Below, in pieces: positions 11,838-49,316 of a stretch of DNA of 64,000 bases (positions are counted from its first letter, which is position 1; the number at the start of each line of letters is the position of its first letter). A program made the translations under genes and the position numbers. This DNA is from Utricularia gibba (lineage: Eukaryota > Streptophyta > Magnoliopsida > Lamiales > Lentibulariaceae). The notes under the pieces were generated by a model. That model saw only the letters and a list, made by a program, of their open reading frames with translations, did no database searches and had not been told where the DNA came from. The DNA is taken from positions 2,790,001-2,854,000 of the forward strand of contig NEEC01000011.1 of NCBI GenBank assembly GCA_002189035.1. Reading direction: 5' to 3'.

Positions 11838-12946
11838 ACTCTGTCAGCGATCGATATCAGCCACCCACCAACGGCGATACTGGCCGGCGAATCCTTTCCG
11901 ACGTAGTTGGGGTTACAAGATCGGCTCTGCCCATTGGCCATACGCTTCTCGTAAACCTGCGAAAGCCCAATTATTTCCACTAACAAAATTTTAATAAAAT
12001 AAAATAAATTATTATACTTTACCACATATATTTTTCTATACATTAGAAATTAATATCTTCTTAATAAAAAATACATTTTTTGATTTCTATCCTTTTTGAA
12101 TTATACAATATTTTTTCTAATTAAATTTTAAAAATTAAATTTCTCAAATGTAATTTTGAATTTAGTATTGCACAAAAGTGGATAAAAATAGCAATTTGAG
12201 GTTCCTTGTAGGCATTTTGATGACACAATCAACCTATATGTGATATAAAAATATTTTTTATATTGAATACTTTATTTTAATTACGTGTTTTTAATTTCAT
12301 CTGTTAAATATCTAATTAATTTTTTTATTAACTTTATATTTATGATAAAAATACATGAGGTATGAGGTATTTTTAATTAAGTATATAGTATTACAAGTAT
12401 TTTAATAATAAATGTTTTTTAAAAAATAATATTATCTATAAAATACAATTATTTTTTTTAAATTATTATTTAATTTTTTACATAAATAAGTATCATCCAT
12501 ATTTAATATTGACCAAATTAAAGCAGCCTTAATAAAGAAAGTCCACTCAAAATAGATTTTTTTTGGAATATTTAGGAGACAACTATTTTTGAAAAGTAAC
12601 CATTATGGTTTTCTCTCACACAGTAAAATCAAATTTTTATATATATGATGATTGCTTTTTTCATATTTTTTTTAAGAAAATTCATTTGAAACACAAAGAG
12701 ATTTGAATATAGATTGATTATTGGAATTTAATTTCAAAGATTAGATACAAGGAATCTATTTTCAAAATTCAGAATAAAAAACATCATAAACTAAATCCAA
12801 CAGAAAGTAACATCTTATAGTTTAAATTTAAATACATATAAAATAATTATATATGCGATATAAAATGTGAAAAAGAAATAGAAGCTATAAAAAAGGAAGA
12901 TGAAGAAAGTTTAACGGAATTCAGATCTCAGAAAAACGAGAAGAAG
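11838..12946. other. AT-rich divergent spacer
   Basis: This lies between the starts of the DGK gene (-) and the first Methyltransf_24 gene (+), so both promoters should be here. Nearly all of it is A/T-rich. I see no clear TATA box, repeat or open frame that I would defend. Confidence 0.4.
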
Positions 12947-13927
12947 ATGAAATCGGAGAATCAGTCGGATCCATCGCTGCCGTCGTCTGTCCATCACATC
13001 CGGCAGCGTTATGTCAACCGTTCACCGCCGCTGCCAAATAAACTGCCACGCCCGGCGGCATGGATGATCCTCCTCGTCGTCGCCGTCTACGCTCTGGGTA
13101 CGCCTCGAATCATATGTTTTCCGAAACCGTCGTCGATTCGGGACCCCACAGTGATTTCTCCGAGCAACACTGCGCCGCTGCGGTGTCCTACTCCGCGGTG
13201 CGGCGTACGATCCACGAACGCGTCTTCAACGGTAATTCGCCCTGGGACAATTTCCCTCCGCCGCATGTGGCGCCGCTCCTGGACCGGCAGTGGACTAAGG
13301 GATGGGGTCTAATGCCCCGGTTTTCGAGCATCTCATCACTCAGGTGAATCACACACAATCCTATCTCGTGAAAGATTATTTTGGCAAAACAATGTGCCAC
13401 TGTTTCATCGAGTTTTTCCACTGGTTCAGGTGCAGCCTAAAACCATCATCGAAGTGGGCACCTTTCTGGGCGCCTCCGCCACCCACATGGCGGCGCTGAC
13501 CAAAAGGCTAGGCCTCGACACCCAAATCATCTGCATCGACGATTTCCGCGGCTGGCCGGGATGGTACGACGGAGGTAAATCGATAAAGATGGTGAACGCA
13601 GACAGTCTCCTCCTGTACCAATTCATGCAGAACGTGGTCACCGCGAACGCGACGTCGTCGATCGTGATCCTCCCCTTCTCTTCCTCCACCGCCCTGAGTG
13701 GGCTCTGCGGCTGGGGAGTGTACGGCGATCTGGTAGAAATCGACGCAGCCCATGATTTTCACTCGGCGTGGGTTGATATCAATCATGGGTTCAAAGTTCT
13801 CCGGCCCGGCGGTGTCCTCTTCGGACACGATATTGCCTGGAAAGGCGTCAGAAGAGCCGTTCATCTTTTCGCGAAGATTCACGGCTTCCGTGTCAAAATC
13901 GACGGCGAACATTGGATCCTGTACTGA
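12947..13927 (+). CDS. membrane-anchored Methyltransf_24 protein, copy 1, two frame breaks
   Basis: First of a tandem pair. Exon 1 is 12947-13343, exon 2 is 13430-13927 (GT-AG). Exon 2 is fully open: PKTIIEVGTFLGASATHMA is the S-adenosylmethionine-binding glycine motif, followed by ICIDDFRGWPGW, DLVEIDAAHDFHSAW and VLRPGGVLFGHD. Exon 1 gives an N-terminal cytoplasmic tail, a membrane anchor (WMILLVVAVYAL), then the luminal stem. Relative to copy 2, exon 1 has lost one base near 13096 and one near 13304. Adding both restores the frame and the GSNAPVFEHLITQ end. Both losses lie in G runs. This is either consensus error or a decaying duplicate; the perfectly open exon 2 favours error. Substrate is unknown. 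Confidence 0.82.
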
Positions 13928-15701
13928 GAATGCAATCCGCCGGCGGTGATGGGCACTGCTCGCCGTTTCATCTTTACTTGAATAATTTGAATCCCTTTAT
14001 ACTCATACCAACTTGTAACTTCAAACACTCCCCTCCTGAAGTGATTTTAATTCAAATTGGGATGAGTTCATTTCCCGAATTTTTCATTTTAATTCTTCAA
14101 AAATATTTTTAATGAAATGATTTTTAAAAAAATTATATGATAATAAAATTATTTCGAAAATTCATTAATTAAATTAAGATGAAAGGAGAAACCCAAAATT
14201 GAAACCCATATTATCACAATCACGCTTTCTATAGTGGGCCGAGCCAACACCCTTGTCGGCCCAAATTGAATGCCAGGTACCCAAAAACCCATTTTAATAG
14301 TCATTGAAAAAAAAACTATAACATTGTTATAAAAAATTTTTGGAACCTATTATTACTTTTTCAAAATTATTTTAGAAAAAAAATAAGAAGAAAAAGTAAG
14401 ATTCTCTTATTTGTTCAAAAGGTTAAGTTTGTCAGGGTGATTAATGAAAGATTTGATGCTCGAAAATAGTCTTATATTAACCTTAAATTTTGATACAAAA
14501 ATCTAAAACCAAACCATCTCTCCGGTACTTGATGTAATCTTTCCTTTGGATAAAATTTTGGATGAATTTTGAAAATATTTAATTTCATGAAAAAAATCAA
14601 AATCCGAGTTTTTGGGATATTTTAATAAAATTTCTTTGACAAACATAGGGCATCGTACACCGTCGATATGGTGGCTAGTTAGGCGAATGTCAACCACCGC
14701 GTGCGCATCACGTGCGCATGGCCAAATGAAAAACTTTGTACATGGACATCAGGGCGCGAATCTTTAACTTGAATCTAGGGGGACAAAAAATTTTTTTTAT
14801 TAACCCATGCTTATTAATGTAAAATTAGAGAGGGCTAAAATTTAATTTTTATACTTTTAAATCTTATTAATTTTCAACCTTATTCATTTTTTAAAAAAAA
14901 CAAGAAGGGGCTACAGCCCATGTTCATTATGCTTAAGATCCGCCCGTGATGGACATCAACTATTTTGTTTTCGAATAAGAATAATAACAAAAAAAAATTA
15001 ATTTAAATTAATGATTTGAAATTTCAAAAAATGGATATAATTAAAAAATAATAGATATTTGCTAAAATAAGAATGTGAATAATGGAATATTCGATAATTT
15101 TGAAATTTTATATATAAATTTATAAATACAGATAATATTCTATTGCAATTGCCAAACCCTCAATCATTTAATCTCTATAACAAAATATAGTCAATTTCTT
15201 TATTAATATAAATTATACCCAACTTATAATCATCTTGTTTTACATATATATAAATTATACATAAATATTTTTATCAAATAATTTTGTTATACATGAAATG
15301 TAAAATATACTTTATAGAAATAATTGTTTATTTTTTCAAATATAATATTATTAACTATATGCATAAGATTTATAAACTAAACTCCAGTTTAAGTGCTACC
15401 TACGAACCAAAAGTGTACTATGAGAATTATTGATTTATAAACTAAACTCCAGTTTATATATTAAATGAAATAAATATTAAATAAAAATAATTATTTTAAT
15501 GAACATGATCATTTTCCTGAATATTACAAAATAGGACTATTTTGCAAACATTTATTTTGCAGAGGTCTATATTGCCTTGGCCGCCGAACTAGTACAATAA
15601 TCTCTTGCCATTGCAATTAGTCAATCACAGAATATAAAATATTTTTTAATGTTTTTAAATAATGACGACATTAATTTTGTCCTCAGACGAACAACACCGG
15701 G
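13928..15701. other. intergenic between the tandem methyltransferase genes
   Basis: Mostly AT-rich. 14740-14950 resembles a degraded dispersed repeat, with G-rich phrases such as TAGGGGGACAAAA and GAAGGGGCTACAGCC, but no ends could be defined. A 25-base direct repeat containing TATAAACTAAACTCCAG occurs at 15367-15391 and again at 15432-15456. No gene is seen. Confidence 0.4.
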
Positions 15702-16680
15702 ATGAAACCAGATAACCAGACCAATCTTTTCGTGCCGTCGTCTTTCCAGCGCATCCGGCAGCGTTCTATCAACCCATCGTCGCCGCTGCTAAAAAGATTG
15801 GCACAGCTGGTGGGATGGGTGATCCTCCTGCTCGCCACTGCCTACAATGTCTGGTGTGCGTCGGATCATCTTCGTTCCGCCGCCGCCGTCAAGTCGGGAT
15901 TCGATGTGGGAGAACATGGTAATTTCTCCGATCAACGCTGCGCTGACCCCTTGCCCCACTCCGCCGTGCGCCAAACGATTCACAACCGCGTCTTCAATGG
16001 TACATCGCCGTGGGACAATTTCCCGCCGCCGCATGTGGCCCAGATGCTGGATCGTGAGTGGACTGAGGGAGGGGGCTGCAACGCCTCCGTTTTCGAATAT
16101 CTCATTGCCCAGGTAAACCATATTTTTGGACCTTTCTAAATGATTTTATCGTGCGTGTTCATGATTTTTACTACTGGTTCAGGTGCGGCCTAAAACCATC
16201 ATCGAAGTGGGGGCCTTTCTGGGGGCCTCCGCCACCCACATGGCGGCGGTGACCAAAAAGCTCGGCCTCGACACACAAATTATCTGCATTGACGATTTTC
16301 GCGGCGGGCCGGGATGGGATGACGGGGGTAAATCGATGAAGATGGTGAACGGAGACAACCTCCTTCTGTACCAATTCATGCACAACGTCGTCGCCGCGAA
16401 CGCGACGGAGTCGATCGTGATGTTCCCCTTCTCGCCGTCCACCGGACTAGGTGGGCTGTGCGAGATGGGAGTGTTCGGTGATCTTGTCGAAATCGACGCG
16501 GCACAGGATTTTCACTCGGCGTGGATTGATATCAATCATGGGTTCAAAGTTCTCCGGCCCGGCGGTGTCCTCTTCGGACACGATATTGCTCGGGAAGGTG
16601 TCCGGAAAGCTGTCCATCTTTTCGCCAAGATTTTCGGCTTTCGTGTCCAAATCGACGGCGAGCATTGGATCCTGCAGTGA
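15702..16680 (+). CDS. membrane-anchored Methyltransf_24 protein, copy 2
   Basis: This is the intact member of the pair, 302 residues from exons 15702-16112 and 16183-16680 (GT-AG, phase 0). The N-terminus is a short basic tail and a single helix (LVGWVILLLATAYNVWC), so a type II membrane protein facing the Golgi or secretory lumen is likely. The catalytic domain (from about residue 138) has TIIEVGAFLGASATHMA, then IICIDDFRGGPGW, GDLVEIDAAQDFHSAWIDI and GGVLFGHDIAREGV. Plants carry several such proteins with no firmly known substrate. It starts about 1.8 kb downstream of copy 1 on the same strand with the same exon structure, so a local tandem duplication is clear. Confidence 0.88.
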
Positions 16681-17186
16681 GAATGCAATCCGCCGGCGGT
16701 GATAGATATCGCTCGCCGTTTCATCTTCACCTCAATGATTTAAATTTTATACTGAAACCAACTTGTAACTTCAGACGTATGGTTTTATCCACTGGATTTT
16801 CGATATTCAGAATTCGATCAATCGATTAACCGAATTTTTACCGATTTTGACTGAATCAAATGATTCAGCCAAGACAACAACCAGGAGTAATTGTAACTTT
16901 CAAATTCAAGATTGAATTTTTATGGGTTCTGCTTGAATCCAACCATGGAGCACCAGGTGTTAGTGGAGGAGAGTTTCACGATCCCAGAATTGGAACCCGA
17001 ATCATACGATCTTGGACTGAATCCTTCTTGAGTTCAAGGTAAAAGTGGTTAACAAAGTAAACCATCTGGACAACACAGGGACCAATGATCTACAGAATCA
17101 CTCCCAATAGCAACAGCAGAAAAATTCTGTGAGATCTTTATGAAACCATATCAGCTGTATGAAGCTGCCTACAAGAAGCAGATCTC
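16681..17186. other. intergenic
   Basis: This lies between convergent genes. It contains short phrases resembling dispersed repeats (ATCGATTAACCGAATTTTTA near 16820), but no element boundaries and no coding signal. Confidence 0.4.
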
Positions 17187-35605: not shown

Positions 35606-37011
35606 ATGGTCCGAGCATCGAGATCTTTTGGTTTGTTTTTCATGGGGTTTGTGATTTTATTTTCTGGGTTGGAAGGTGAGATCCGGACGTACGAGATAAA
35701 AAGGGGCGATCTTTCTGTCAAGGTGTCTAACTTCGGAGCCAGAATCGTGTCTGTTGTTCTTCCAGACAAGAATGGTGCGCTGTAACGCTTCCTTTTTCGT
35801 AACCCATTTCGCGAATTCGCTTCTTGTGTTGATTTAATGCGTTTCGTTTTCAGGTAATTTGGGGGATGTTGTTCTTGGCTATGATACGATCACACAGTAT
35901 ATGGTACTGCTGTCGATTGTTTTCCGATGTGTGTTTTGTTGTGTGAATCATGAGAATATTGCAGAACGATTCCGCTTACCTTGGAGCCATCGTCGGCCGA
36001 GTCGCAAATCGAATCGCCGGAGCTCGGTTTACCCTGAATGGGACTCTCTATAAGCTTGACTGTAATGAAGGATCCAACACGCTCCACGGTTCGGATTTAC
36101 GGGTTAGTTGTTCTGATCGGCTTGCTTTTCTGCAACTATGGATTCTGTCTTTCAACAGGAGGTAGAAGAGGATTCAGTCAAGTAGTTTGGAAGGTGAAAA
36201 GCCACAGACAGAGTGGATCATCTCCATCTGTTAGTTTGCAGTATCACAGCCGTGATGGGGAGCAAGGTGTTTGTTAAAAGTCTTCAAAGGGGAAGGAAGA
36301 AGAATACCTGTGCCATCTTCTGATCATTCTTTTTGCAGGTTTTCCGGGAGACCTTCGCGTCACCGTAACGTACGCGATCCCCGAGCCATACCGGCTGACA
36401 GTAGACATGAAGGCCACGGCCATAAACAAGCCCACGCCTGTGAATCTCGCCCAACACAGCTACTGGAACCTCGCTGGTCACAACAGTGGGAACATACTCT
36501 CCCACGAGCTGCAACTATTTGCCTCACACACCACTCCGGTCGGCCAGCACCTCATCCCCACCGGAGAGATCGCCTCCGTGAAGCGGACACCATATGATTT
36601 CCTCGAGCCACATCCGATCAACGCCCAAATTAGCTCACTTCCCGCCGGCTCCAAAGGCTACGACATCAACTACGCTGTTGACGGTTACAGGGCGAAACGA
36701 ACCAGGCCTGTGGCAGCAGTCTACTCCCCAGGTCCGGCCGAAGAATGGAGCTCTCATCGGATGCCCCTGGAGTTCAGCTCTACACCGGTAACTATTTGCA
36801 TGATGTGAATGGGAAGGGAGGTTTCCTTTACCAGAATCATGCAGGTCTGTGCTTGGAAACTCAGGGCTTTCCCGATTCTGTGAATCATCCAAATTTCCCC
36901 TCACAGATTGTGTTCCCCGGTGGAACGTACAAACACCACATGGTGTATGCGTTTTCAGTCGCCGGAGGCGGCGGGCTCGGTACGCCCAAGTGCCGAAAGC
37001 GCTCGGCTTGA
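35606..37011 (+). CDS. aldose 1-epimerase (galactose mutarotase), one-base frame break
   Basis: It interconverts alpha and beta hexose anomers; the signal peptide (SFGLFFMGFVILFSG) suggests secretion. Exons are 35606-35774, 35854-35903, 35965-36088, 36159-36266 and 36339-37011, all GT-AG. Catalytic residues are visible: the histidine of NTLHGG (formed across the exon 3/4 junction), the histidine of NLAQHSYWNL and the glutamate of LCLETQGFPD. YLGAIVGRVANRIAGARF and GYDINYAVDG are family marks. Near 36731-36743 the frame breaks; one added base leads into RRMELSSDAPGVQLYTGNYL and gives 374 residues. The end HMVYAFSVAG is followed by a Gly-rich tail to the stop. A copy of this 3' end lies at 39085-39356. 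Confidence 0.9.
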
Positions 37012-38128
37012 CAGTGGTAACGCAGTTTTGTGGAATCGAATCCCTTTCACAGATTCACTTTCCGGTGGAATTTGATCACATCGTAAACCAAATTGACGCA
37101 ATAATTTACCTTCATACCCTAAACACAATCTCAGTTTTGAAGTCTGAAACCTACCTCCGTTCCGCCGCCGGCGATTACTGGATAATCCCAACGCTAATTT
37201 AATTGATTGATGATCACTTTATTTGATTATTTTTTTTTATATTTACATTTTTTAGTTCATTATTGATCTCTAGAAACTCATGACTATTCAAGAATGTTCG
37301 AAATGATTAAAAAAATATGATCATTATCAGCATTAATATTAAGAATAATAATATAATATAATGAATTCGATTTCCCATTCATAATTCAACGTAATGAATG
37401 TGCCTTTCCTTTCACATTGGTAAGACCTTTCCACTCCATGGGTCCCGTGGGACCTGCATGACAAGTACGGTCGTGAAGTAAATTAGACAGTATATTTATT
37501 TTTTAAAAAAATATATCTGAAAAAACAAATTCCAAATTTAAATATATAGGATTTGTGTTGGTATGATGGTGTAGAAGGTTAAATATTTAGATTTAGTAAT
37601 AATTAAATTTCACCATGTCACGGATGCTACGTGGTACGGACATTTTTGTCCAATTGATCTTGAATACATTTGAACACCAAATCCATTCTTTTCTGAAAAT
37701 AATAAAGTATTGATGATATTATTATTGAAGCAATAGGACGTGGGTCCCTTGTGGGCCAAGTCGAGGTCAAAGTCAAGGTCAAAGTCAAGGTCAATATATA
37801 TTAAACAATTCGAAGGTGGGGTCACATGGAGCAGCGTTGTCCGTTGGCTTTATTGGGATATATTACAAAAGTGGTCGTGTGTGAGAAAAATGATCATTTA
37901 TTAATTTGTAAAAGAAAAAAATATAGTTGTCTTGCCAAATTTTTCATTTTTTTATTATTTCAAAATGGATTTTTATTATTAAATATTTAATTTATACTCT
38001 CAATTTTAATTATTACCATCCTACGAAGGTGGCCAAATCAATTTTATTAGCTAATAAAATAATAAGAATTAAATATATTTAAATTTTAAAAAGTTAAGTG
38101 TTGTGTACCCTCACGCCTCATCCTGTTC
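37012..38128. other. AT-rich spacer, upstream region of array copy A
   Basis: It follows the aldose 1-epimerase gene. 37200-37400 resembles 39550-39740, so this spacer was part of the duplicated unit. It contains the W-box array at 37765-37794. Confidence 0.5.
37765..37794 (-). promoter_or_regulatory. W-box array upstream of copy A
   Basis: Five GTCAA cores (TTGAC on the minus strand) occur at exact six-base spacing: 37766, 37772, 37778, 37784 and 37790. The unit is GGTCAAAGTCAA. TTGACC/TTGACT is the WRKY-factor binding core. The array lies about 335-365 bases before the TATA box of copy A. Confidence 0.7.
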
Positions 38129-38135
38129 TATAAGT
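38129..38135 (+). promoter_or_regulatory. TATA box of copy A
   Basis: TATAAGT is followed by GGCCGACCCGACAACTCGCT, a leader shared by copies A, B and C and, partly, D. Confidence 0.7.
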
Positions 38136-38204
38136 GGCCGACCCGACAACTCGCTGAAAAAACACCTTCCTTTTTGTGTTCGCCTGCGGATTCTTTGGAA
38201 GAGG

Positions 38205-39014
38205 ATGACGGGTAAGTAGCTCCGCTCCGTCTTCAACTGGTTTTGCAGAAATGATATTGTTCGAAAATGGGTACCGGGACAGGGAGTGAGGAAGCGGGTT
38301 CCATGGCCGTGGATCATGCAAAGGCTTATCCCCTTTTTTCTCTGCATTTCAGATGGAAGACGGCTTTCCCCGGATGAGATGAAGAACGATATCCCTGCGA
38401 TATATCATTCTTTTGTGGAGGTATAAGTTATGAATACGAGGTTTTGAGATTCAACGTGAAATCCTTTTGGTTGGTTGCAGAAATCGCGTGGAGTGGTGGA
38501 GGACAAGTCTCTGAGATTGGATCAATTCAAGCTGGAACTGGAAAGGTTGAGGCTTCAGCATCTCTCAAGGTCAGTAGATGTTAGGAAAGGAAATAGAGAT
38601 GAAGTCATTCCGTAACTTATTCCTTTTTGTGGCAGGTGTGATGAAGCCACAGCGTACGTGGATCAGAGGCTCCGAGCAGGGATACGGTCGCAGTTGGATA
38701 AGCAACTGCGGGAGCAAATTGCAGAAGCTGTCACTGGGAGGGAACTAGAGATGGTGACGAGTGCTCTAGAAGAGGCGAAAGAGGCTAGGAGACAAGCGGA
38801 TCTAGCTGTTGCAACTGCGAGGGAGTCACAGAAAGAAGCGCAAATGGCACAGGAAAACGCGAAAAAAGTCATGAACAAAGCGGCTCTTGTTGCAGGAACA
38901 GCTGCCGTGTTTACTGTCGGTAATAAGGCGTTGAATGAGGTGGAGGCCTGCTCTGATCCTGATAAAGAAGGCATAATCGAGGGTATTGTAGATTTTTTTA
39001 GCAGTTTCTTCTAG
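38205..39014 (+). CDS. tandem helical DPxxxG-repeat protein, copy A
   Basis: I do not recognise this family. Proposed exons are 38205-38211, 38353-38420, 38481-38569 and 38636-39014, all GT-AG, giving 180 residues. The first exon codes only for ATG ACG G before a strong GTAAGT donor. The N-terminal part (GRRLSPDEMKNDI, then KSRGVVEDKSLRLDQFK) is helical. A long charged segment from VDQRLRAGIRSQLDKQLREQ to AQMAQENAKKVMNKA looks like a coiled coil. A Gly/Ala-rich stretch (ALVAGTAAVFTVGNKALNEV) and one acidic repeat (ACSDPDKEGIIEGIVDF) close the protein with FFSSFF. No cysteine pattern, enzyme motif or clear signal peptide is seen. Exons 2-4 are the same in all four copies. Confidence 0.8.
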
Positions 39015-39084
39015 TAGTTTCTGCTTTGCGTTTGGATATGTATACGTGTGTAAAATTCCTCGAAACCAAATCATATATTTTCTC

Positions 39085-39356
39085 AGAGATCGTATTTCCC
39101 GGTGGAGCATATAAACAACAGATGGTGTATAAGTTTTCAGTCGACGGAGGCGGCGGGCTCGGTACGTCCGAGTGCCAAAAGCGCTCGGCTTGACAGTCGT
39201 AACGCAGTTTTGTGGAATCGAATCCTTTTCACAGATTCAATTTCCGGTGGAACCTGATCGCATCGGACGCAATAATTTGCATTCATACCCTAAAGAAAAT
39301 CTCAGTTTTGAAGGCTGAAACCTACCTCCGTTCCGCCGGCGGCGATTACTTGACGG
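39085..39356 (+). pseudogene. duplicated 3' fragment of aldose 1-epimerase
   Basis: This segment copies 36904-37175, the end of the last exon and the 3' region of the aldose 1-epimerase gene, at high identity. It begins at PGGAYKQQMVYKFSV, keeps the same Gly-rich tail and stop, and has no upstream exons. It lies directly after copy A and marks the left border of a segmental duplication. Confidence 0.85.
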
Positions 39357-39889
39357 GAAGTGGCGATGAACCCTATTATAAAAGTAAACATTTGTGTGTA
39401 TAAAAAAATGATTATCGTATATTTAAAAAAATTTTGATCATAATATATGAGATATAAAGTTGGTATAATTACTTTTCAAAATTATCTGCACCAATGAGAG
39501 GCGACACGGATGCAAATATCAAAATCAAATAATTGATTAACAATCCAAACCCTAATTTAATTGATTCATGATCCCTTTGTTTTCATATTTATATTTTTTA
39601 ATTCATTATTGATCTCTATAAATAAACTCATTACTATTTATGTATGTTTTTAATGATTAAAAAATATGATCATTTATCGGCATTAATACCAAGAATTATA
39701 ATATAATAAAATGAATTCGATTTCCAATTCATAATTCAACTCTTCCACTAGAATCCAATCGACAATTTCGAATAGGTATGACTTTTCAATCCATGGGTCC
39801 CGCATGCCAAATTGCGATGGTGGAGGATTTGGAAAAGTGGGTCCCTTTTGGGCCGTGTAGCTGGTTCGGATAATGACGACTGGGTTAAG

Positions 39890-40000
39890 GTCAAGGTCAA
39901 CCTGAATTTAAAAATTATGAAATATAATTTTTTAAATAGTATGCGTAGCAAATACGGAACTCAGTGTTGTTCGCCGGAGCCTCAGTCGGGTCTATAAATA
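39890..40000 (+). promoter_or_regulatory. W-box pair and TATA box of copy B
   Basis: GTCAA cores lie at 39890-39894 and 39896-39900, six bases apart, and are preceded by the degenerate GGTTAAGG. TATAAATA is at 39993-40000, followed by the leader TGGCCGACCCGACAACTCGC shared with copies A and C. The W-boxes are only about 95 bases from the TATA box here. Confidence 0.65.
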
Positions 40001-40062
40001 TGTGGCCGACCCGACAACTCGCTAAGCTAGCACCTTGATTTCGGATTCATTGAAAGAGGAGG

Positions 40063-40947
40063 ATGGGTAAGTTGCTCCGCTCCTCTTCTGGTGATTTTTC
40101 AGAAATGAGACTTGTTCGAAAGGCAATGAGCAAGCGGATCATGCACTCCGTTTTTTCTCGAGCAATCGCTAGCACTAAACCCCACTTTTTTACAGGTAGT
40201 AGCATGGGATTGGATGAGATTCACGGGGTTATCTGCAACATATGTAGCACTTTTGAAAAGGTATAACTATGTTTGGAGAGGAGCTTTTCAGATTGGATGT
40301 GAAATCCTTTTGGTTGGTTGCAGAGTGTGGTTGGAATGGTGGAGGACACGTCTATTGGACTGGATAAATTGAAGGAGAAACTAGAAAGCATCAGGCTTCA
40401 CCATCTCTCAATGTCAGTAGATTTTAGTCACTGATGTAGTAGTCATTCCCTAACTCCTTTCTTTTTGTGGTAGGTTTGAGAAAGCCACAGCGAACGTGGA
40501 TCAGACGATCCAAGTCTGGACACGGTCGGAGTTGGATCGGAAACTGGGGAGCTACTTGACAAAGCTATGCAGATAAAGCAAATGAAGATGGCGGGGAGTG
40601 CTCTGGCAACAGCGAGAGAGTTAAACGAACAGACGCGAATGGAACTGGAAAAAGTGAAAGCAGCCAGTAGCAGCAAAGCGCTTCTTACTGCAGTAGGTGG
40701 CGTTGTTGCAGGCGCCGTTGTGAATAATGAGGTGAGGGCCTTCTATGACCCTCAGAAACAAGGGTTGCTGGAGGGAATGATGCACAAGTGTCATGAAGAG
40801 TTGGATGCCTTCTCTGATCCTGATAAAGAAGGCTTCCTGGAAGGATTGATGCATAAGGGCTGTGATGAGGTGGAGTCCTTCTTTGATCCTGATAATCAAG
40901 GCTTCTTTGAGACACTTATAGATGGTATTAGCAGTTTCTTCTCCTAG
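40063..40947 (+). CDS. tandem helical DPxxxG-repeat protein, copy B, one-base frame break
   Basis: Proposed exons are 40063-40066 (ATG G), 40196-40260, 40324-40412 and 40474-40947. The donor GTAAGT and acceptor TTTTTTACAG give MGSSMGLDEIHGV in frame. Exon 4 breaks at the G run 40546-40549, where one added G joins SELDRKLG to ELLDKAMQIKQMKMAGSA, giving 210 residues. It has the same plan as copy A, with a Gly-rich hydrophobic stretch (ALLTAVGGVVAGAVVNNEV), but three acidic repeats: FYDPQKQGLLEGMM, FSDPDKEGFLEGLM and FFDPDNQGFFETLI. It ends ISSFFS. An unspliced reading from the same ATG is also open for 66 codons because the TAG seen in A and C is TTG here; I consider that less likely. Function unknown. 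Confidence 0.75.
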
Positions 40948-41376
40948 TTTCTGCTTTGCGTTTGGATCATCAGCACACCCTGCGATGTACTACTGTTCTG
41001 TGGTGCTGCTATTTTCTAAAAAACTTAACTATGAAACGGTGTGCATGATGCAAAACACCACTTGTTTGATTGATGTGTTTTAGATATTCCTGGATTTAAA
41101 TTTTTTGAGTTTAACTAAATCCAAATATATAAGTATAAAAATAATCATACTCCCCTTAAGTATATATATATATCTATATATGATATACCAGAATATTATA
41201 TGAATATAATGATTATTATATTCATATATAAAATATAATTATAAACATATATCAAATAATATAATTTTATTAAATCTATTATAAACTAACTTTATATCAT
41301 CATATCAAATAAGTACTTACACCAACAACCACAAACGGTGCCCATTATTGTGGGCACGTTGTATCGCTACGACTTG

Positions 41377-41386
41377 GTCAAGTCAA
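41377..41386. promoter_or_regulatory. orphan W-box pair
   Basis: GGTCAAGTCAAGTCA gives GTCAA at 41377-41381 and 41382-41386. It belongs to the duplicated upstream module but has no array gene directly behind it. Confidence 0.5.
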
Positions 41387-42708
41387 GTCATGGTCCGTGG
41401 GTGTCGTCGACTCGCTGGTGGGCCTGCCTTGGTTGCGTCTTGCCAAAACTGCAAATGGTTATTAAAAATTTATTATTCATTTTCAATATTCTCATCACTT
41501 CAGAATACAACAATATTAGGACATGTTCTGTTGCAATAATTTTTTTAATTAATTTTATTTAATCCGTGAAGATTATAATATTCAACATTATATAATAAAA
41601 TTAGAAATTCAGATTCTATGATTAATTTTATAAATTATTAAATTTATTGAAGATGATTAAATAAGTTATTAATTAAAAATTATACTATTTATTTTTTATT
41701 TATTTTAAAAATATATTTATATTGTAAATTACATAATAATTTATGTACTAAACCTTACAGTATATATGTTATTTTATTAAATTTTATATAGAAATTCATA
41801 CTATATAAAAACAGTTTTATAATTTCAAACGGATTCAGTTCTCATAATCTTAACATTAGTTCTATTCTACATAATTTAAAACACAAATTCACATTATACA
41901 ACAAGCCCTTAATATTCAACATTTTTTCATTACATTAAAATTGATCCTCCATTATTAAATCTTAATTAATAATCTAAATTTTCCCTCCTCATATAGATAG
42001 TTCCTCGCCATGCCATGCGTTGCGGGCGGATGGTAATTTTTAAGTAATAATGATAAATTATATTTCATACGTAAATGATAAAGATAAAAAAAAAATATGA
42101 TGAATGTAAAATATTAAAATACATGAATTTACCATATATATAATACCTTGTGAGCCGTGAGAAATGAAAATTTAAGCCCAATTCTGTGGGCCGGCCCAAC
42201 CCAGTCTTAAAAAATATCGAACTTAAGCTTATATAGAAATCTAAAATTTTATTGAGCTTTTTGATCCCAACCTTGAAATCTTTTAAGGTTAATTGTTTTA
42301 GGGTTCAAAAACCCAATGGATCTAAAGCCAACTTAAGATATGATTTTTATGCATTATAATTATAATTATTCTTAATTTAAATAATTTTAATTTATTTTAT
42401 ATAAATAATATGAATTAATAAGTAACATAATAATTTAAATTAGTTTTTATAAATTATTTAAATAATACTAAAATGTATTAATATTTAATAATTTTTTAAA
42501 AATCTTATTTATTACATATTAGGTCGAGGGGTCGTACCAAAATCCATCCAATAAATAATCGGATTACGACCATATTAATCATGTCTTTATTTAATCAAGA
42601 TTTAGCTCGGCTTTAGCCAGAAGCATGACGAAGGCCCTTTGAATCGACCCGACCCGACTTTCATCTTTAGAGCGGCGTAGCTGGTTTGGAGGGTATCTTT
42701 ACGACTTG

Positions 42709-42719
42709 GTCATGGTCAA
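42709..42719. promoter_or_regulatory. W-box site upstream of copy C
   Basis: ACGACTTGGTCATGGTCAAGG has one intact GTCAA (42715-42719) and one GTCAT. It is about 310 bases before the copy C TATA box and is the weakest of the five modules. Confidence 0.5.
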
Positions 42720-43026
42720 GGTTAATCTGTAATTAAAAATTATAAATAAAATTTTATATGAGGTGGGGCCGCGTCGACAAATTCCATGGTACCACGGGTG
42801 TCGGCCCACAGCTCGCTGGTGGGCCCGTCTTCCCAAAATTTTCATTTTTTTATTACATCAAATCGGATTTCTGTTATTAAATATTAAGTTATTACTCTCA
42901 ATTTTAATTATTACCATCGTAGTCCCCACCTACCAAGGTGACCAAATCAACTTTATTAACTAATAGAATAAAAAGAATTAATTTTTAAATACTTCAGGCA
43001 TGTATTACTCGCACGTCATCCTCTAC

Positions 43027-43033
43027 TATAAGT
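43027..43033 (+). promoter_or_regulatory. TATA box of copy C
   Basis: TATAAGT is followed by the shared leader CGGCCGACCCGACAACCCGC, as in copy A. Confidence 0.7.
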
Positions 43034-43109
43034 ATGCGGCCGACCCGACAACCCGCTGAACAAACACTTTACTTTTTGTGTTCGCCTGCGGATTCTTTGG
43101 AAAAGGAGG

Positions 43110-43916
43110 ATGGGTAAGTAGCTCCGCTCCGTCTTTAACTGGTTTGGCAGAATTGATATTTTTCGAAAATGGGTACCGGGAAAGGGAGTGAGCAAGCGGG
43201 GTCTATGTCCGTGGATCATGCACAGGCTTATCCCCTTTTTCCTCTGCATTTCAGATGGAAGACGGCTTTCCCCGGATGAGATGAAGAACGTTATTTCTGA
43301 GATATATCATTCTTTTGTGGAGGTATAAGTTATGAATACGAGGTTTTGAGATTCAACGTGAAATCCTTTTGGTTGGTTGCAGAAATCGCGTGGAGTGGTG
43401 GAGGACAAGTCTCTGAGATTGGATCAATTCAAGCTGGAACTGGAAAGGTTGAGGCTTCAGCATCTCTCAAGGTCAGTAGATGTTAGGAAAGGAAATAGAG
43501 ATGAAGTCATTCCGTAACTTATTCCTTTTTGTGGCAGGTGTGATGAAGCCACAGCGTACGTGGATCAGAGGCTCCGAGAAAGGATATGGTCGGAGTTGGA
43601 TAAGCAACTGCGGGAGCAAATTGCAGAAGCTGTCACTGGGAGGGAATTAGAGATGGTGAAGAGTGCTCTGGAAGAGTTGAAAGAGGCTAAGAGGCAAGCC
43701 GATATAGCCATTGCAACTGCGAGAGAGTCACAGAAACAAGCGCAAATGGCACAGGAAAAAGCGAAAAAAGACATGAAGAAAGCGGATTTTGTTGCAGGAA
43801 TAGCTGCCGGGGTTACGGTCGGTAAGCTGGCGTTGAATGAGGTGGAGGCCTGCTCTGATCCTGATAAACAAGGCATCATCGAGGGTATTGTAGATTTTTT
43901 TAGCAGTTTCTTCTAG
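43110..43916 (+). CDS. tandem helical DPxxxG-repeat protein, copy C
   Basis: Proposed exons are 43110-43113 (ATG G), 43255-43322, 43383-43471 and 43538-43916, giving 179 residues with no frame break. It is nearly identical to copy A: exon 3 is the same peptide, and exon 4 differs at scattered sites (for instance RERIWSELDKQLREQ and AKKDMKKADFVAGIAAG). Its introns and 3' region are also very close to copy A, so A and C are the youngest pair. It has one acidic repeat (ACSDPDKQGIIEGIVDF) and ends SSFF. It is followed by a fragment of the downstream receptor-like kinase gene. Function unknown; a predicted soluble or membrane-associated helical protein. Confidence 0.82.
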
Positions 43917-44090
43917 TAGTTTCTGCTTTGCGTTTGGATATGTATACGTGTGTAAAATTCCTCAAGATTGTGTGTTCTAATAAAAGCAAATCACGTAGTT
44001 TCTCAAGCTTGATCTATGCAACGGTGTCCATGATACAAACACTGAGCAAAAAGGAGGGCTTCCTTCTTCCTCAAAGTTTTTCCTTTTTAT

Positions 44091-44720
44091 GTTTTCAGTG
44101 AGCATAAGATTTAGCATTCTTGAGGGCGGGTGGTGCGAAAGGGCAGCAACCCCATTTCTCGCATTGAGCACGACCCTGCCCCCGCCAGAGTTCATCGGCT
44201 GGAAATAAGACGACGCCGCCGCTATGTCCCTGAGGCTCGGCAGCGGCTCCAAGACCGCCACCACTTGGCTCATCCCTGGTCTGTTTTTAGCGCCACCACT
44301 GCTAGCTGCACAGCCTGTTTGGCTCCTTTATCGAGTATCTGCGCTCTAGACGAGGGTCGATCAGCCGGTAAAACCTCCGATTCTCTCCCGGTATGTGTTA
44401 TAATGAAATATTTAAATATATAAAAAATTACAAATCCCAATTAATTGGTTAGATCTAATTTTTTTTATTATAATTCCTGTTTATTGTTTTCTTGAACTTC
44501 ATGTATGAGATCGTCGGACCTGTCGTATCCTAAATTTCAACACTATATTGAAACATATACCACTATGAACTTCATAGAGGTATGTTCCCATAACACGAGT
44601 CCACACATGCGTCTTGTCGCCCTGCATCATTAAACATACAGCTAGGTAACGAGTAATCAAAGCTACAAGGAGTTCAAGAACTCATACAGGCTTCTATGCT
44701 TCTTCATCAACATATTATAT
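44091..44720 (-). pseudogene. truncated, rearranged copy of the PBL-type kinase 3' end
   Basis: Minus-strand sequence matches the last exon of the kinase gene at 47535-49316 ([10 protein letters not shown], then [20 protein letters not shown] and [20 protein letters not shown]). Internal deletions remove part of the [13 protein letters not shown] region. 44574-44720 matches pieces of the next exons and intron, again with deletions. It has no N-terminal kinase lobe. It sits behind copy C as the complete kinase gene sits behind copy D. Confidence 0.88.
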
Positions 44721-45947
44721 ATCAAAATGAAATCGATTTCTATTTTATAATTCAAGGGAAATATCGGATTATGTGCCTTTTAGATAGGCGATGACCTCTT
44801 CAATCCCGTGGGACCCATGGGACCCACATGACAGGTACGGTTAGAGACGTGGTCAAACTGCAATGATTGATATGAATGAGGGTAAAATTTAAAATATTAA
44901 GAGCCATTTTGGTTGATGATTTTAATCTAAATACACGTTTAATTTATTTGGGTTTAGATAACCCGATTTTATGGGTTTAGAGAGTTTAATTCGTGTTTGG
45001 TTGATGAATTTAAGTTATTTGAGTTTAAGATGAATACACGTTTGTTACGTAAATATAAAATTGAATTTGTGATGAATTTTCATATGAAATTATTAATATA
45101 ACCTTCCCTAACAATAACTACATATAACTGGTATAGCATTGTATAGGGTAGACAGTGTTACGACGTCTTATGGGGAAGCACCGCGTATGAACAAGCATGG
45201 TGTTATGGTGATGTGATGTGCGTAGCATAGCCCAGCCTATGGAAAAATCCATGTCCCCTTAATAGTAGTAAAAATCGAGCAAAATAAATCCACACACACA
45301 TCAACATTGATTATTAAATTGGAAAATTACAAATAAAAACCCACTATGCGGTGTTCTCGTGGACAAACCCACTAAGAACATAAAACACACTTATTGGAAG
45401 ACCCACCCTTTGCGCCCAAACTACACACGACGGCACTGGTAATTCACGAACAAAGCTTCTGGTTTGTAGATCTACGTTCAAAGTTGAATGACGCGAGCGT
45501 AAAATTGAAAGTAATGAGACTTGTTTAGCTGAACCGACCTTCCCCATGGGTTTAGCTATACCTAGTTGGATAGGTTCCCGTCTGATTTATAGTCAACAGT
45601 CAGGTTTATTTTTACCCGTCTGAAACCCACGCCGTAACCCACCTAAACCATCCAACCAAAAAGTGAGGATGCCAATTTTTCTAAATGATATTATTCATGG
45701 GCATATCCAAATACATATTCAAAAAACATACATATGTGAATGAACAAATTCCTTATTTTAAAAAAGTATATAATATACAGAAGCCACTAATTAAACGTTT
45801 TATTTAAATCCAAGTAATTTAAAAGTATTGATTATAATAATAATAATATTTTTATTATTATCCAAGCGATAAGTTAAATTATTGTAATTGAATGTGGGTT
45901 TTGCGGGTGTGTTGCTGGTTTGGAGTTTATCTCCACGACCTGGACAA

Positions 45948-45957
45948 GTCAAGTCAA
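45948..45957. promoter_or_regulatory. W-box pair upstream of copy D
   Basis: ACGACCTGGACAAGTCAAGTCAA gives GTCAA at 45948-45952 and 45953-45957, with a further TCAACTCAAC after it. It is about 400 bases before the copy D TATA box and shares the GCTGGTTTGGAG phrase with the copy C module. Confidence 0.55.
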
Positions 45958-46358
45958 CTCAACTGATATATAAATATCTTTGATATTTAAATAATAAAGA
46001 TAAAAAATAGGGACCATAGGCATTGGATACAGTAAATAATTAAGACTAATTATAGAAACAATAAAAATATCATTTTCAGAGGTTTGTATGATATTATTAT
46101 GTTTAAACTATATTATAAAACATCCAAAAAAACATGTTTTTTACATATATAATTAGATTAACTTCCTATATATAAACAAGATGTTTAAAAAATAAATATA
46201 TAATTGGTATAATTAATTATTTACATAGGCTAGTTTATCAAATAAAAATTTATATGTAAATTTAATTATACATTTTCTGTACTATACTATTAAATACTCT
46301 GTCATTAATTTTCATAAACTGCCAAAGACCGCAAGTACCCTCAAGCCTCAACCTGGTC

Positions 46359-46365
46359 TATAAGT
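46359..46365 (+). promoter_or_regulatory. TATA box of copy D
   Basis: TATAAGT is followed by TTTGGCCGACTCGGCAAAAA, a shortened form of the shared leader. Confidence 0.65.
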
Positions 46366-46654
46366 ATTTGGCCGACTCGGCAAAAACCTTCCTTTTTGTG
46401 TTCGCCTGCGGATTCTTTGGAAGAGGAGGATTGGTAAGTAGCTTCGCTCCGTCGTCTAGTGATTTTTCAGAAATGATATTCTTCGATAATGGGTGCTGCG
46501 AAAGGCGGTGAGCAAGCGGGCTCCATGTCCCTGGATGATGCACCGGCTGCTTATCCCCCTTTTTTTCTTCATTTCAGAAGTATCAGTAGCACTTCACCCC
46601 AGTTTTTTACAGGTAGTATTAGGCAACCAGACTGCTAAAAAAAGCGGCCTTGCC

Positions 46655-47357
46655 ATGGATGAGATGAAGATGGTTATCCGCAAGATATGTAATACTTTTG
46701 ATGAGGTATAAGTATGTTGGGGGGACGAGCTTTTCAGATTGGATGTGAAATCCTTTTGGTTGGTTGCAGGGTGTGTATGGACTGGTGCGGGATAAGTCTA
46801 TTGGATTGGATAAATTCAAGGAGAAAGTGGAAAGGATGAGACTTTTTCAACTCAAAAGGTGAGTAGATGTTAGTTCCTGACAAGGAAATGGAGATGAAGT
46901 GATTCCGTAGCTTCCTTCTTTTTCTGGTAGGTGTGACAAAGCCACAGCGAACCAGGGGAGTATGGTCCAAGAACGGACACGGTCGGAGTTGGATAAGAAG
47001 CTGCGGGAGCGAGTTCAAGAAGGTATCAGGCTGAAGGAAATGCAGATGGAGGGGAGTGCTCTGAAGCAACTGAAAGAGGAAAGGAGACAATCGGATGTAG
47101 CTCTGGCAACAGCAAAGAAGTTAAACCAACACACGCAGAGGCTAGTGGAAGAAATGAATGAACCCCGTATCGGAGCGGCTCTTATTAGAGGTGCAGGTGG
47201 CGCTTTGGTGGGCGCCGTTGTGCGTAATGAGGCGAATGCCTTGTATGATCCTGATAGAGAAGGGGTGGTGGAGGGAATGGTGGACGCCTTCTCTGATCCT
47301 GCTCCAGAAGGCTTCTTGGAGGGAATAGTAGACTTTGTTAGCAGTATTTTCTCCTAG
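46655..47357 (+). CDS. tandem helical DPxxxG-repeat protein, copy D (start uncertain)
   Basis: Exons are 46655-46705 (5' end uncertain), 46770-46858 and 46931-47357. The codon matching the start of copies A-C reads ATT (at 46430), so the shared start is lost. I chose the ATG at 46655, which has a strong GCCATGG context. An upstream ATG at 46535 is also in frame, but would translate a pyrimidine tract that is intronic in the other copies. From 46655 the product is 188 residues (228 from 46535). It has the helical N-part (MDEMKMVIRKI), a charged helix (SELDKKLRERVQEG to RRQSDVALATAKKL), the most Gly-rich stretch (GAALIRGAGGALVGAVVRNE), and two repeats (LYDPDREGVVEGMV, FSDPAPEGFLEGIV). It ends SSIFS, tail to tail with the kinase gene. 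Confidence 0.72.
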
Positions 47358-47534
47358 TTTCTGCTTTGCGTTTGGATCACAAGCACACCCTGTGATGTAT
47401 TACTATTCTGTGGTGTTCCTATTTTCTCAAACTTGAACTATGAAACGGTGTCCATGACACAAACACTGAGCAAAAGGAGAAGCTCGCCAAATTCAAGGCT
47501 TCCTTCTTCCTCAAGGTTTTCTCTTTTTGTGTTC

Positions 47535-49316
47535 TCATTGTGCATGAGATTTGGGATTCCTCAGGGCGGGGTGGTGCGAAAGCGCAACCCCATTTCTCGC
47601 ATTGAGCACCACCCTGCCCCGGCCGGAGTTCATCGGCTGGAAATAAGACGACGCCGCCGCTATGTCCTTGAGGCTCGGCAGTGGCTCCAAGACCGCCACC
47701 ACTTGGCTCATTGCTGGTCTGTTTTTAGCGTCACGGCTAAGGCACTTGGCTGCTAGCTGCACAGCCTGTTTGGCTCCTTTGATCGAGTATCTGCCCTCTA
47801 GACGAGGGTCGATCAGCCGGTAAAACCTCCGATTCTCCCCCAGGTAAGGCCTCGCCCATTCCACCAAATTGTGTTCTCCGTTTGGCCGGCTTTTGTCCAT
47901 TGATCTTCTTCCACTGAGGAGTTCCAGCAGAACCACTCCGAAACTATAGACATCACTCTTTGCCGTGAGATGGCCTGATGAAAGCAAATCCATCATTTTC
48001 TAGACAAACACTTGAACAGAGAACTGAACTTCACCTGTCATAACATATTCTGGTGCAGCATAGCCGTAAGTTCCCATAACACGAGTCGACACATGCGTCT
48101 TGTCACCCTGTGGGGCATCTTTGGCGAGTCCGAAATCGGAGAGTTTTGCGGTGTAATCCTGCATCAGTAAACATACAGCTAGGTAACGAGTAATCGAAGC
48201 CACAAGGAGTTCAAGAACTCATACAGCGTCCAGCAGAATGTTGGATGTTTTGAAGTCTCTGTATATCACAGGCTTCTCTGCTTCTTCATGAAGAAAAGCC
48301 AGGCCCTTGGCTGCATTCAGTGCAATTTTCAATCTCAAACACCAAGGAAGCGGCAGAGATCCTGTGCTCAGAACGATCAGACATATTTTATGCATCAAAA
48401 CAAACAAAGGGAAATGATAAAAGATCTCGTACTCTTGAACAGGTGATTCTCCAGGCTTCCACGGGGCATGAACTCATAAACGAGGAGTCTCTGGTCTCCC
48501 TCAATGCAATATCCAATCAATTTGACCAAATGGGGATGGATCAGTTCCCCAAGATAGTTTACTTCAGCCTGTGTTTGTGTGAAATCAGTTGCTAATCTTA
48601 CAGAAATGAACTGAAGTTGAACCTCACCAGCCACTCTTTGTGCCCTTGGAGTCCATCATGATTGAGAGTTTTGACTGCAACCGTGAGCCCAGAACCAGGC
48701 TTCACCGGAGAGCCACCGTTTTCATTGATCCAGCCTTTGAAGACACAGCCAAAGCCACCCTCCCCGAGCAGACTATCTGGCCTAAAGTTCCTTGTAGCAA
48801 GCTTCAGTTCATTATAAGTGAACTTCCGCAGCTGTGAAGATACTCTCAATTCTTCCATTTTCGGAGTTGCACTAGCACTCTCCATGTTGCTGGTGGTTGA
48901 AGATGACACAACTGGCACGACTGGTTTGTCCCTGCTTGTATCTTTTGTAGGTTTGCTCTCGGCTGAAGGAGGAAGAATAGCACCAGAATATGAATCAATG
49001 AATCAATTTTTACTCAGTAAACCTTCAGAATCAGCAGTACCCGAATCAGAAACCATGTATAGCAGATATCAGACAAGTTCAAAATACAGGAAAAAAAATG
49101 CGGGCATCTGAGAAGGGCAAGGAACGAAATAAGGCGAAGGTTACCACATTGGGAGCTGGAACCACTAAGGGAACTCGCAACAGCAGACCTTGCAGACATG
49201 CAATTACCAATAAAGCTTAACTTAACCCAACATCCCCTGTCCCCACGATCATTTTCATCATCCCCATTAAGTATTCTTCCCCTTGTTCTTGTTACAGGAT
49301 CAGCACCCAGCCCCAT
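47535..49316 (-). CDS. receptor-like cytoplasmic kinase VII, PBL34/35/36-like
   Basis: A PBS1-like Ser/Thr kinase of 447 residues. Six exons: 49316-49145, 48962-48628, 48568-48433, 48361-48225, 48158-48035 and 47974-47535, all GT-AG in phase. The N-terminus ([15 protein letters not shown], then [12 protein letters not shown]) is the PBL34-type start. The kinase has the loop [14 protein letters not shown], lysine in VAVKTLN, catalytic [21 protein letters not shown] and the activation end [14 protein letters not shown]. It looks fully active, with no frame break. PBL34-36 act in immune signalling at the plasma membrane. Upstream 49370-49620 probably holds 5' leader exons. Its 3' end is partly copied at 44091-44720. 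Confidence 0.94.

Follow-up and report, generated by a model that had tools for sequence, protein, structure and literature searches.

The question raised by this locus in the bladderwort Utricularia gibba is whether four similar stretches lying one behind another on contig NEEC01000011.1 are genes at all and, if they are, what has made their products diverge. Positions refer to the window, by which we mean the whole stretch of 64,000 nucleotides that was analysed (Table 1). All four copies, here called A to D, were present where the preliminary description had placed them, in tandem and on the plus strand, and they belong to a single gene family, as BLAST E-values among them of about 1e-21 to 0 exclude chance likeness. 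One gene model with four exons and GT-AG introns in phases 1/0/2 fits all four copies, and a four-copy alignment shows that the TATA box, the leader, the introns and the region 3′ of the stop codon are common to all of them. The shared exon structure, splice phases, TATA box and leader that had been proposed at the outset are thus upheld by the alignment and the gene models alike, with the qualification that copy D is without the exon-1 ATG. The TATA-like boxes are located at 38129, 39993, 43027 and 46359, about 70–85 nt upstream of the first-exon ATG or its equivalent.

Table 1. Features of the tandem array and its flanks, with positions counted from the first nucleotide of the window
Feature	Position	Strand	Details
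TATA-like box of copy A, TATAAG	38129..38134	+	Direct reading; conserved in the four-copy alignment
Copy A, 180 aa, intact	38205..39014	+	Exons 38205–38211, 38353–38420, 38481–38569, 38636–39014
Duplicated fragment of the upstream gene's 3′ region (copy of 36900–37390), between A and B	39082..39740		87% identity over aligned bases
Copy B, frame broken, three 23-aa acidic C-terminal repeats	40063..40947	+	Exons 40063–40066, 40196–40260, 40324–40412, 40474–40947
Three tandem 69-nt units, the acidic C-terminal repeats of B	40724..40930	+	Repeat family; 40738–40836 against 40807–40905
Copy C, 179 aa, intact	43110..43916	+	Exons 43110–43113, 43255–43322, 43383–43471, 43538–43916
Broken, rearranged copy of the neighbouring kinase gene's 3′ part, downstream of C	44046..44689	-	Divergence of 6.6–13%, with large gaps and a broken frame
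Copy D first exon, 3′ part: leader, non-coding (ATG to ATT)	46400..46433	+	Splicing and translation, alignment; first exon extends to 46433
Copy D coding region, 188 aa, two acidic units	46655..47357	+	Exons after the first 46613–46705, 46770–46858, 46931–47357; coding parts 46655–46705, 46770–46858, 46931–47357
3′ exons of intact RLCK-VII-like kinase, convergent with D	47535..48226	-	Best PDB relatives PBL2, RIPK and BIK1

The frames of A, C and D read through. In D, the exon-1 ATG has been replaced by ATT, and the earliest ATG of the spliced mRNA lies at 46655 in the Kozak context GCCATGG, where translation probably starts. In exon 4 of copy B, one nucleotide is missing from a run of G near 40547 (CTGCGGGAGC in A, C and D versus CTGGGGAGC in B); its main frame stops after 86 codons, and beyond the deletion the homologous frame continues uninterrupted as far as the stop codon shared by the family, which makes B either a pseudogene or the product of a homopolymer error in the assembly.

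Two short stretches outside the coding exons were also recorded. In A, C and D, the first intron (38212–38352, 43114–43254 and 46434–46612) contains a conserved ATG-initiated frame, beginning MGTGTGSEEAGSM in A and MGAAKGGEQAGSM in D, which has a 3-nt in-frame length difference and would be spliced to exon 2 out of frame; it is possibly an upstream ORF or the relic of an alternative first exon. Directly after the stop codon, the stretch TTTCTGCTTTGCGTTTGGAT (39015–39037, 40948–40967, 43917–43939 and 47358–47377) is identical in all four copies, the coding exons being less conserved, and is perhaps a regulatory site.

Conservation outside the coding exons admits an account in which the array is non-coding or regulatory and the open frames are incidental, function residing in the leader, introns and 3′ end, for example as a structured or precursor RNA. 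Conservation is indeed highest in the leader, the introns and the 23 nt that follow the stop codon, these last showing 0/23 differences in every pair, but A, C and D hold homologous open frames with a common stop, insertions and deletions are in-frame, the splice sites are conserved, and a search with Rfam found no RNA family in the 64,000-nt window. We consider such an account very improbable; the array is a real, coding tandem family with no identified relatives among the collections searched.

The divergences agree with the earlier suggestion that the copies are of unequal age, and the tree of the four copies joins A with C and B with D. To call A and C nearly identical, as the preliminary description did, was an overstatement: the two show 35 differences over 536 exon bases and a protein identity of 87%, and their units align over 1.15 kb at 90% (37929–39061 against 42827–43963). 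The duplicated fragment between A and B is, as we read it, the edge of a duplication unit, and the broken kinase copy downstream of C is in the same manner read as a relic of the C/D duplication or of unequal exchange. Insertion-like stretches within 44046–44689 differ from the parent kinase sequence. The body of copy C is A-like and its downstream flank D-like, so at least one later exchange has taken place. The intact RLCK-VII-like kinase is a positional neighbour outside the family; the duplications took in its 3′ end, and a functional link between it and the array finds no support here. An ancient homoeologous locus was considered and rejected: among the paralogues identified for the MCTP and kinase neighbours, the nearest pairing (C496, with C375) contained nothing family-like when its sequence was read. 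Elsewhere in the window, a second tandem pair (12946–14026 and 15701–16776) is 79% identical over 1.1 kb, and its product, judged by eye only, resembles a class I methyltransferase-type enzyme with the motif IIEVGTFLGASATHMA.

The protein plan seen at first reading, a coiled-coil helix, a Gly/Ala-rich stretch and acidic C-terminal repeats, was recovered from the gene models as a charged helix with a coiled coil, followed by the Gly/Ala-rich segment and then by acidic DPDxxGxxEG units, which number one in A and C, two in D and three in B (with a period in B of 23 aa, or 69 nt). The most hydrophobic 19-residue window begins at residue 121–138, C-terminal to the coil, and the hydropathy of the Gly/Ala-rich stretch is modest, its best 19-residue Kyte-Doolittle mean being 1.1–1.45. 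Membrane insertion was not adopted on account of this hydropathy, which stays below 1.6. No signal peptide is apparent, as judged from the charged N-termini alone, and the proteins are probably cytosolic. Two AlphaFold2 runs on the contiguous exon 4 translation, which covers about 70% of the protein, predicted long helices with low confidence (mean pLDDT 50 and 57, pTM about 0.25), too poor for a fold search. Between these models and the low hydropathy, the membrane activity that had been put forward for the proteins is at best weakly supported, and the stress-related role suggested as an alternative is conjectural. An EF-hand reading of DPDKEGIIEG was likewise not adopted, since loop position 12 is without the expected acidic residue.

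Searches of Pfam, NCBIfam, PHROGs and PDB by profile and sequence gave only sub-threshold, mutually inconsistent matches, with no copy scoring above a cut-off in Pfam-A, and membership of a described family was rejected on that ground; the prokaryote and viral collections held no relatives, and a bacterial or viral origin was rejected accordingly. The first impression of an unrecognised family therefore stands as far as these collections go. Within the host genome, whose 516 contigs total 100,091,633 bases, the family is restricted to one cluster; the queries were the fourth exon of A and of D, D's N-terminal exons and 5′ DNA, and two stray matches (C4 and C414) with E of about 1–2 look like chance. 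The family is absent from the rest of its own genome, the one plant genome covered, and from the prokaryote and viral collections; it may be restricted to this lineage, and the copies likely form an orphan family. The same genome has a modest set of NB-ARC matches, comprising 45 matched stretches, several of them fragmentary.

The copies might instead be highly divergent members of a described plant family, for instance of helical stress, coiled-coil or membrane-anchored proteins, that went unrecognised. Fast evolution erodes detectability, the collections searched were Pfam, NCBIfam, PHROGs, PDB and the prokaryote and viral sets, with plant proteomes outside their scope, and A and C score 17.1 and 15.3 bits with Alanine_zipper (PF11839; E = 0.007 for the 17.1-bit match), below the curated cut-off of 23.1 bits. 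Most plant families, however, have several members per genome, and the absence here of any further relative, together with that of any copy above a Pfam cut-off, makes such a hidden membership unlikely in our judgement, though a rival to be taken seriously. The Alanine_zipper match of A and C is likely compositional.

Averaged over the whole gene, dN/dS lies between 0.8 and 1.2 in all pairs, with a mean of about 1; the codon model gains about 0.3–0.4 in log-likelihood over omega = 1, so that whole-gene omega is not distinguishable from 1, and the differences are even across codon positions. Such values, along with the frameshift in B, the lost start of D and the single place of the family in the genome, would fit an orphan family under relaxed constraint, either recently born or fast being lost, in which diversifying selection plays no part and the duplicates simply drift, B being already dead. 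Divergence in exons, however, is about double that in introns (A–D, 159/528 against 45/267, p = 5e-5; C–D, p = 2e-5). These introns are short and possibly constrained; unless they are, relaxation alone cannot give this excess of exons over the adjoining introns. The fast evolution expected from the preliminary description is evident in the same ratio. Exon 3 diverges by 30% against 17% in each of its adjoining introns, which makes short gene-conversion tracts unlikely as the cause.

The excess is concentrated in the coil. For residues 26–100, comparisons of A and C with D and B gave dN of 0.40–0.43 and dS of 0.14–0.21, with introns at 0.19–0.20; dS thus equals intron divergence and dN is roughly double. 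Set against pooled synonymous and intron sites, dN in this region is raised at p = 1e-4 (A–D), 7e-4 (C–D) and 1e-3 (C–B), in three non-independent A/C-to-D/B comparisons that draw on four sequences and small exon-based regions, the p values here and elsewhere being uncorrected for multiple testing. Against dS alone the coil signal is marginal, with Fisher p of 0.01–0.11 for A and C versus D and B and 0.44 for D–B. Every pair compared over the hydrophobic and C-terminal part has a dN lower than its dS, a deficit that is not significant. Across the gene dS exceeds intron divergence (p = 0.008), driven by the C-terminal segment, where dS reaches about 0.9, and this high value points to a mosaic history or an error of alignment. 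A dN/dS near 1 across all copies, in combination with an absence of transcripts, had been named beforehand as a sign against the proposal; the dN/dS near 1 is true as an average, yet it splits into a coil in which dN runs at about twice the neutral rate and a C-terminal part with the non-significant deficit just given.

The open frames bear on the same choice. In simulations under neutrality, the joint probability of an open frame surviving in A, C and D alike was 0.02 at the intron rate with substitutions only, and fell to 0.0002 or below when indels were allowed or the exon rate was applied; three open frames with exon length changes that are exclusively in-frame are unlikely under drift. 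Taken with a coil dN of about twice the neutral rate, these frames mean that decay is not the better reading, and relaxed constraint throughout is in our view the less likely account, though a serious rival. Diversifying selection may well have acted on part of the protein.

We therefore favour, with a probability of roughly 0.45, a birth-and-death cluster of helical proteins whose coil is diversifying, perhaps under biotic conflict. Tandem duplication at a single locus would have produced a small lineage-restricted family, its products some 180–190 aa long, probably cytosolic and almost wholly helical, each made of a charged N-terminal helix with the coiled coil (residues 1 to about 134 of A), then a glycine/alanine-zipper segment of weak hydrophobicity and, last, between one and three acidic DPDxxGxxEG units. 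The coil would serve as a variable interaction surface under diversifying selection, and its selective partner would most likely be biotic, a pathogen or microbe, because these are the commonest source of such a divergence pattern in plants. The conserved promoter, leader and 3′ end may keep the copies under one regulation. More speculatively, the coil might mediate oligomerisation, and the glycine-zipper segment might pack against a membrane or a further helix. If the family is both lineage-restricted and diversifying, it would represent a compact, genetically simple young family expanding in a genome known for DNA loss, and could be tested as a candidate for a part in conflict or trap biology peculiar to the lineage. 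Should it instead be no more than relaxed orphan DNA, it would exemplify a gene in which opposite trends lie hidden behind a mean dN/dS near 1.

Three known systems invite comparison. Alanine_zipper and other alanine/glycine-zipper helices share with the family an alanine-rich, heptad-like helix and the weak match of A and C, whereas PF11839 itself describes bacterial outer-membrane lipoproteins and its score for these copies is below the cut-off. The arrays of snake small serum protein and venom genes, in which coding exons outrun introns and KA/KS is about 1 or above between some copies (PMC6609765), resemble the array as tandem sets with exons diverging faster than introns. This likeness is one of evolutionary pattern only, as the proteins are unrelated and secreted in snakes, unlike those of the bladderwort family with no apparent signal peptide. 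The RPW8/HR genes of Arabidopsis thaliana form a tandem cluster encoding small non-NLR helical or coiled-coil proteins with variable C-terminal repeats and fast structural turnover (PMC6684095). Membership of that family was rejected: no copy matches the RPW8 domain (PF05659) at E <= 1 and the whole host genome has zero matches to it, the hydrophobic stretch follows the coil here whereas RPW8/HR proteins have an N-terminal putative transmembrane segment, and the repeats are unrelated, with units of 16–23 aa of DPDxxGxxEG type here versus 14 or 21 aa of QWxDIKExKA type there. That the array might be a lineage-specific helical immune or conflict family, RPW8/HR-like in function and with C-termini tuned by repeat number, in a plant genome without the RPW8 domain, we would call a distinctly improbable extension of the comparison. 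As an analogy only, resting on a tandem cluster of small coiled-coil proteins whose repeat number varies from copy to copy, RPW8/HR is the nearest analogue of the bladderwort array in organisation.
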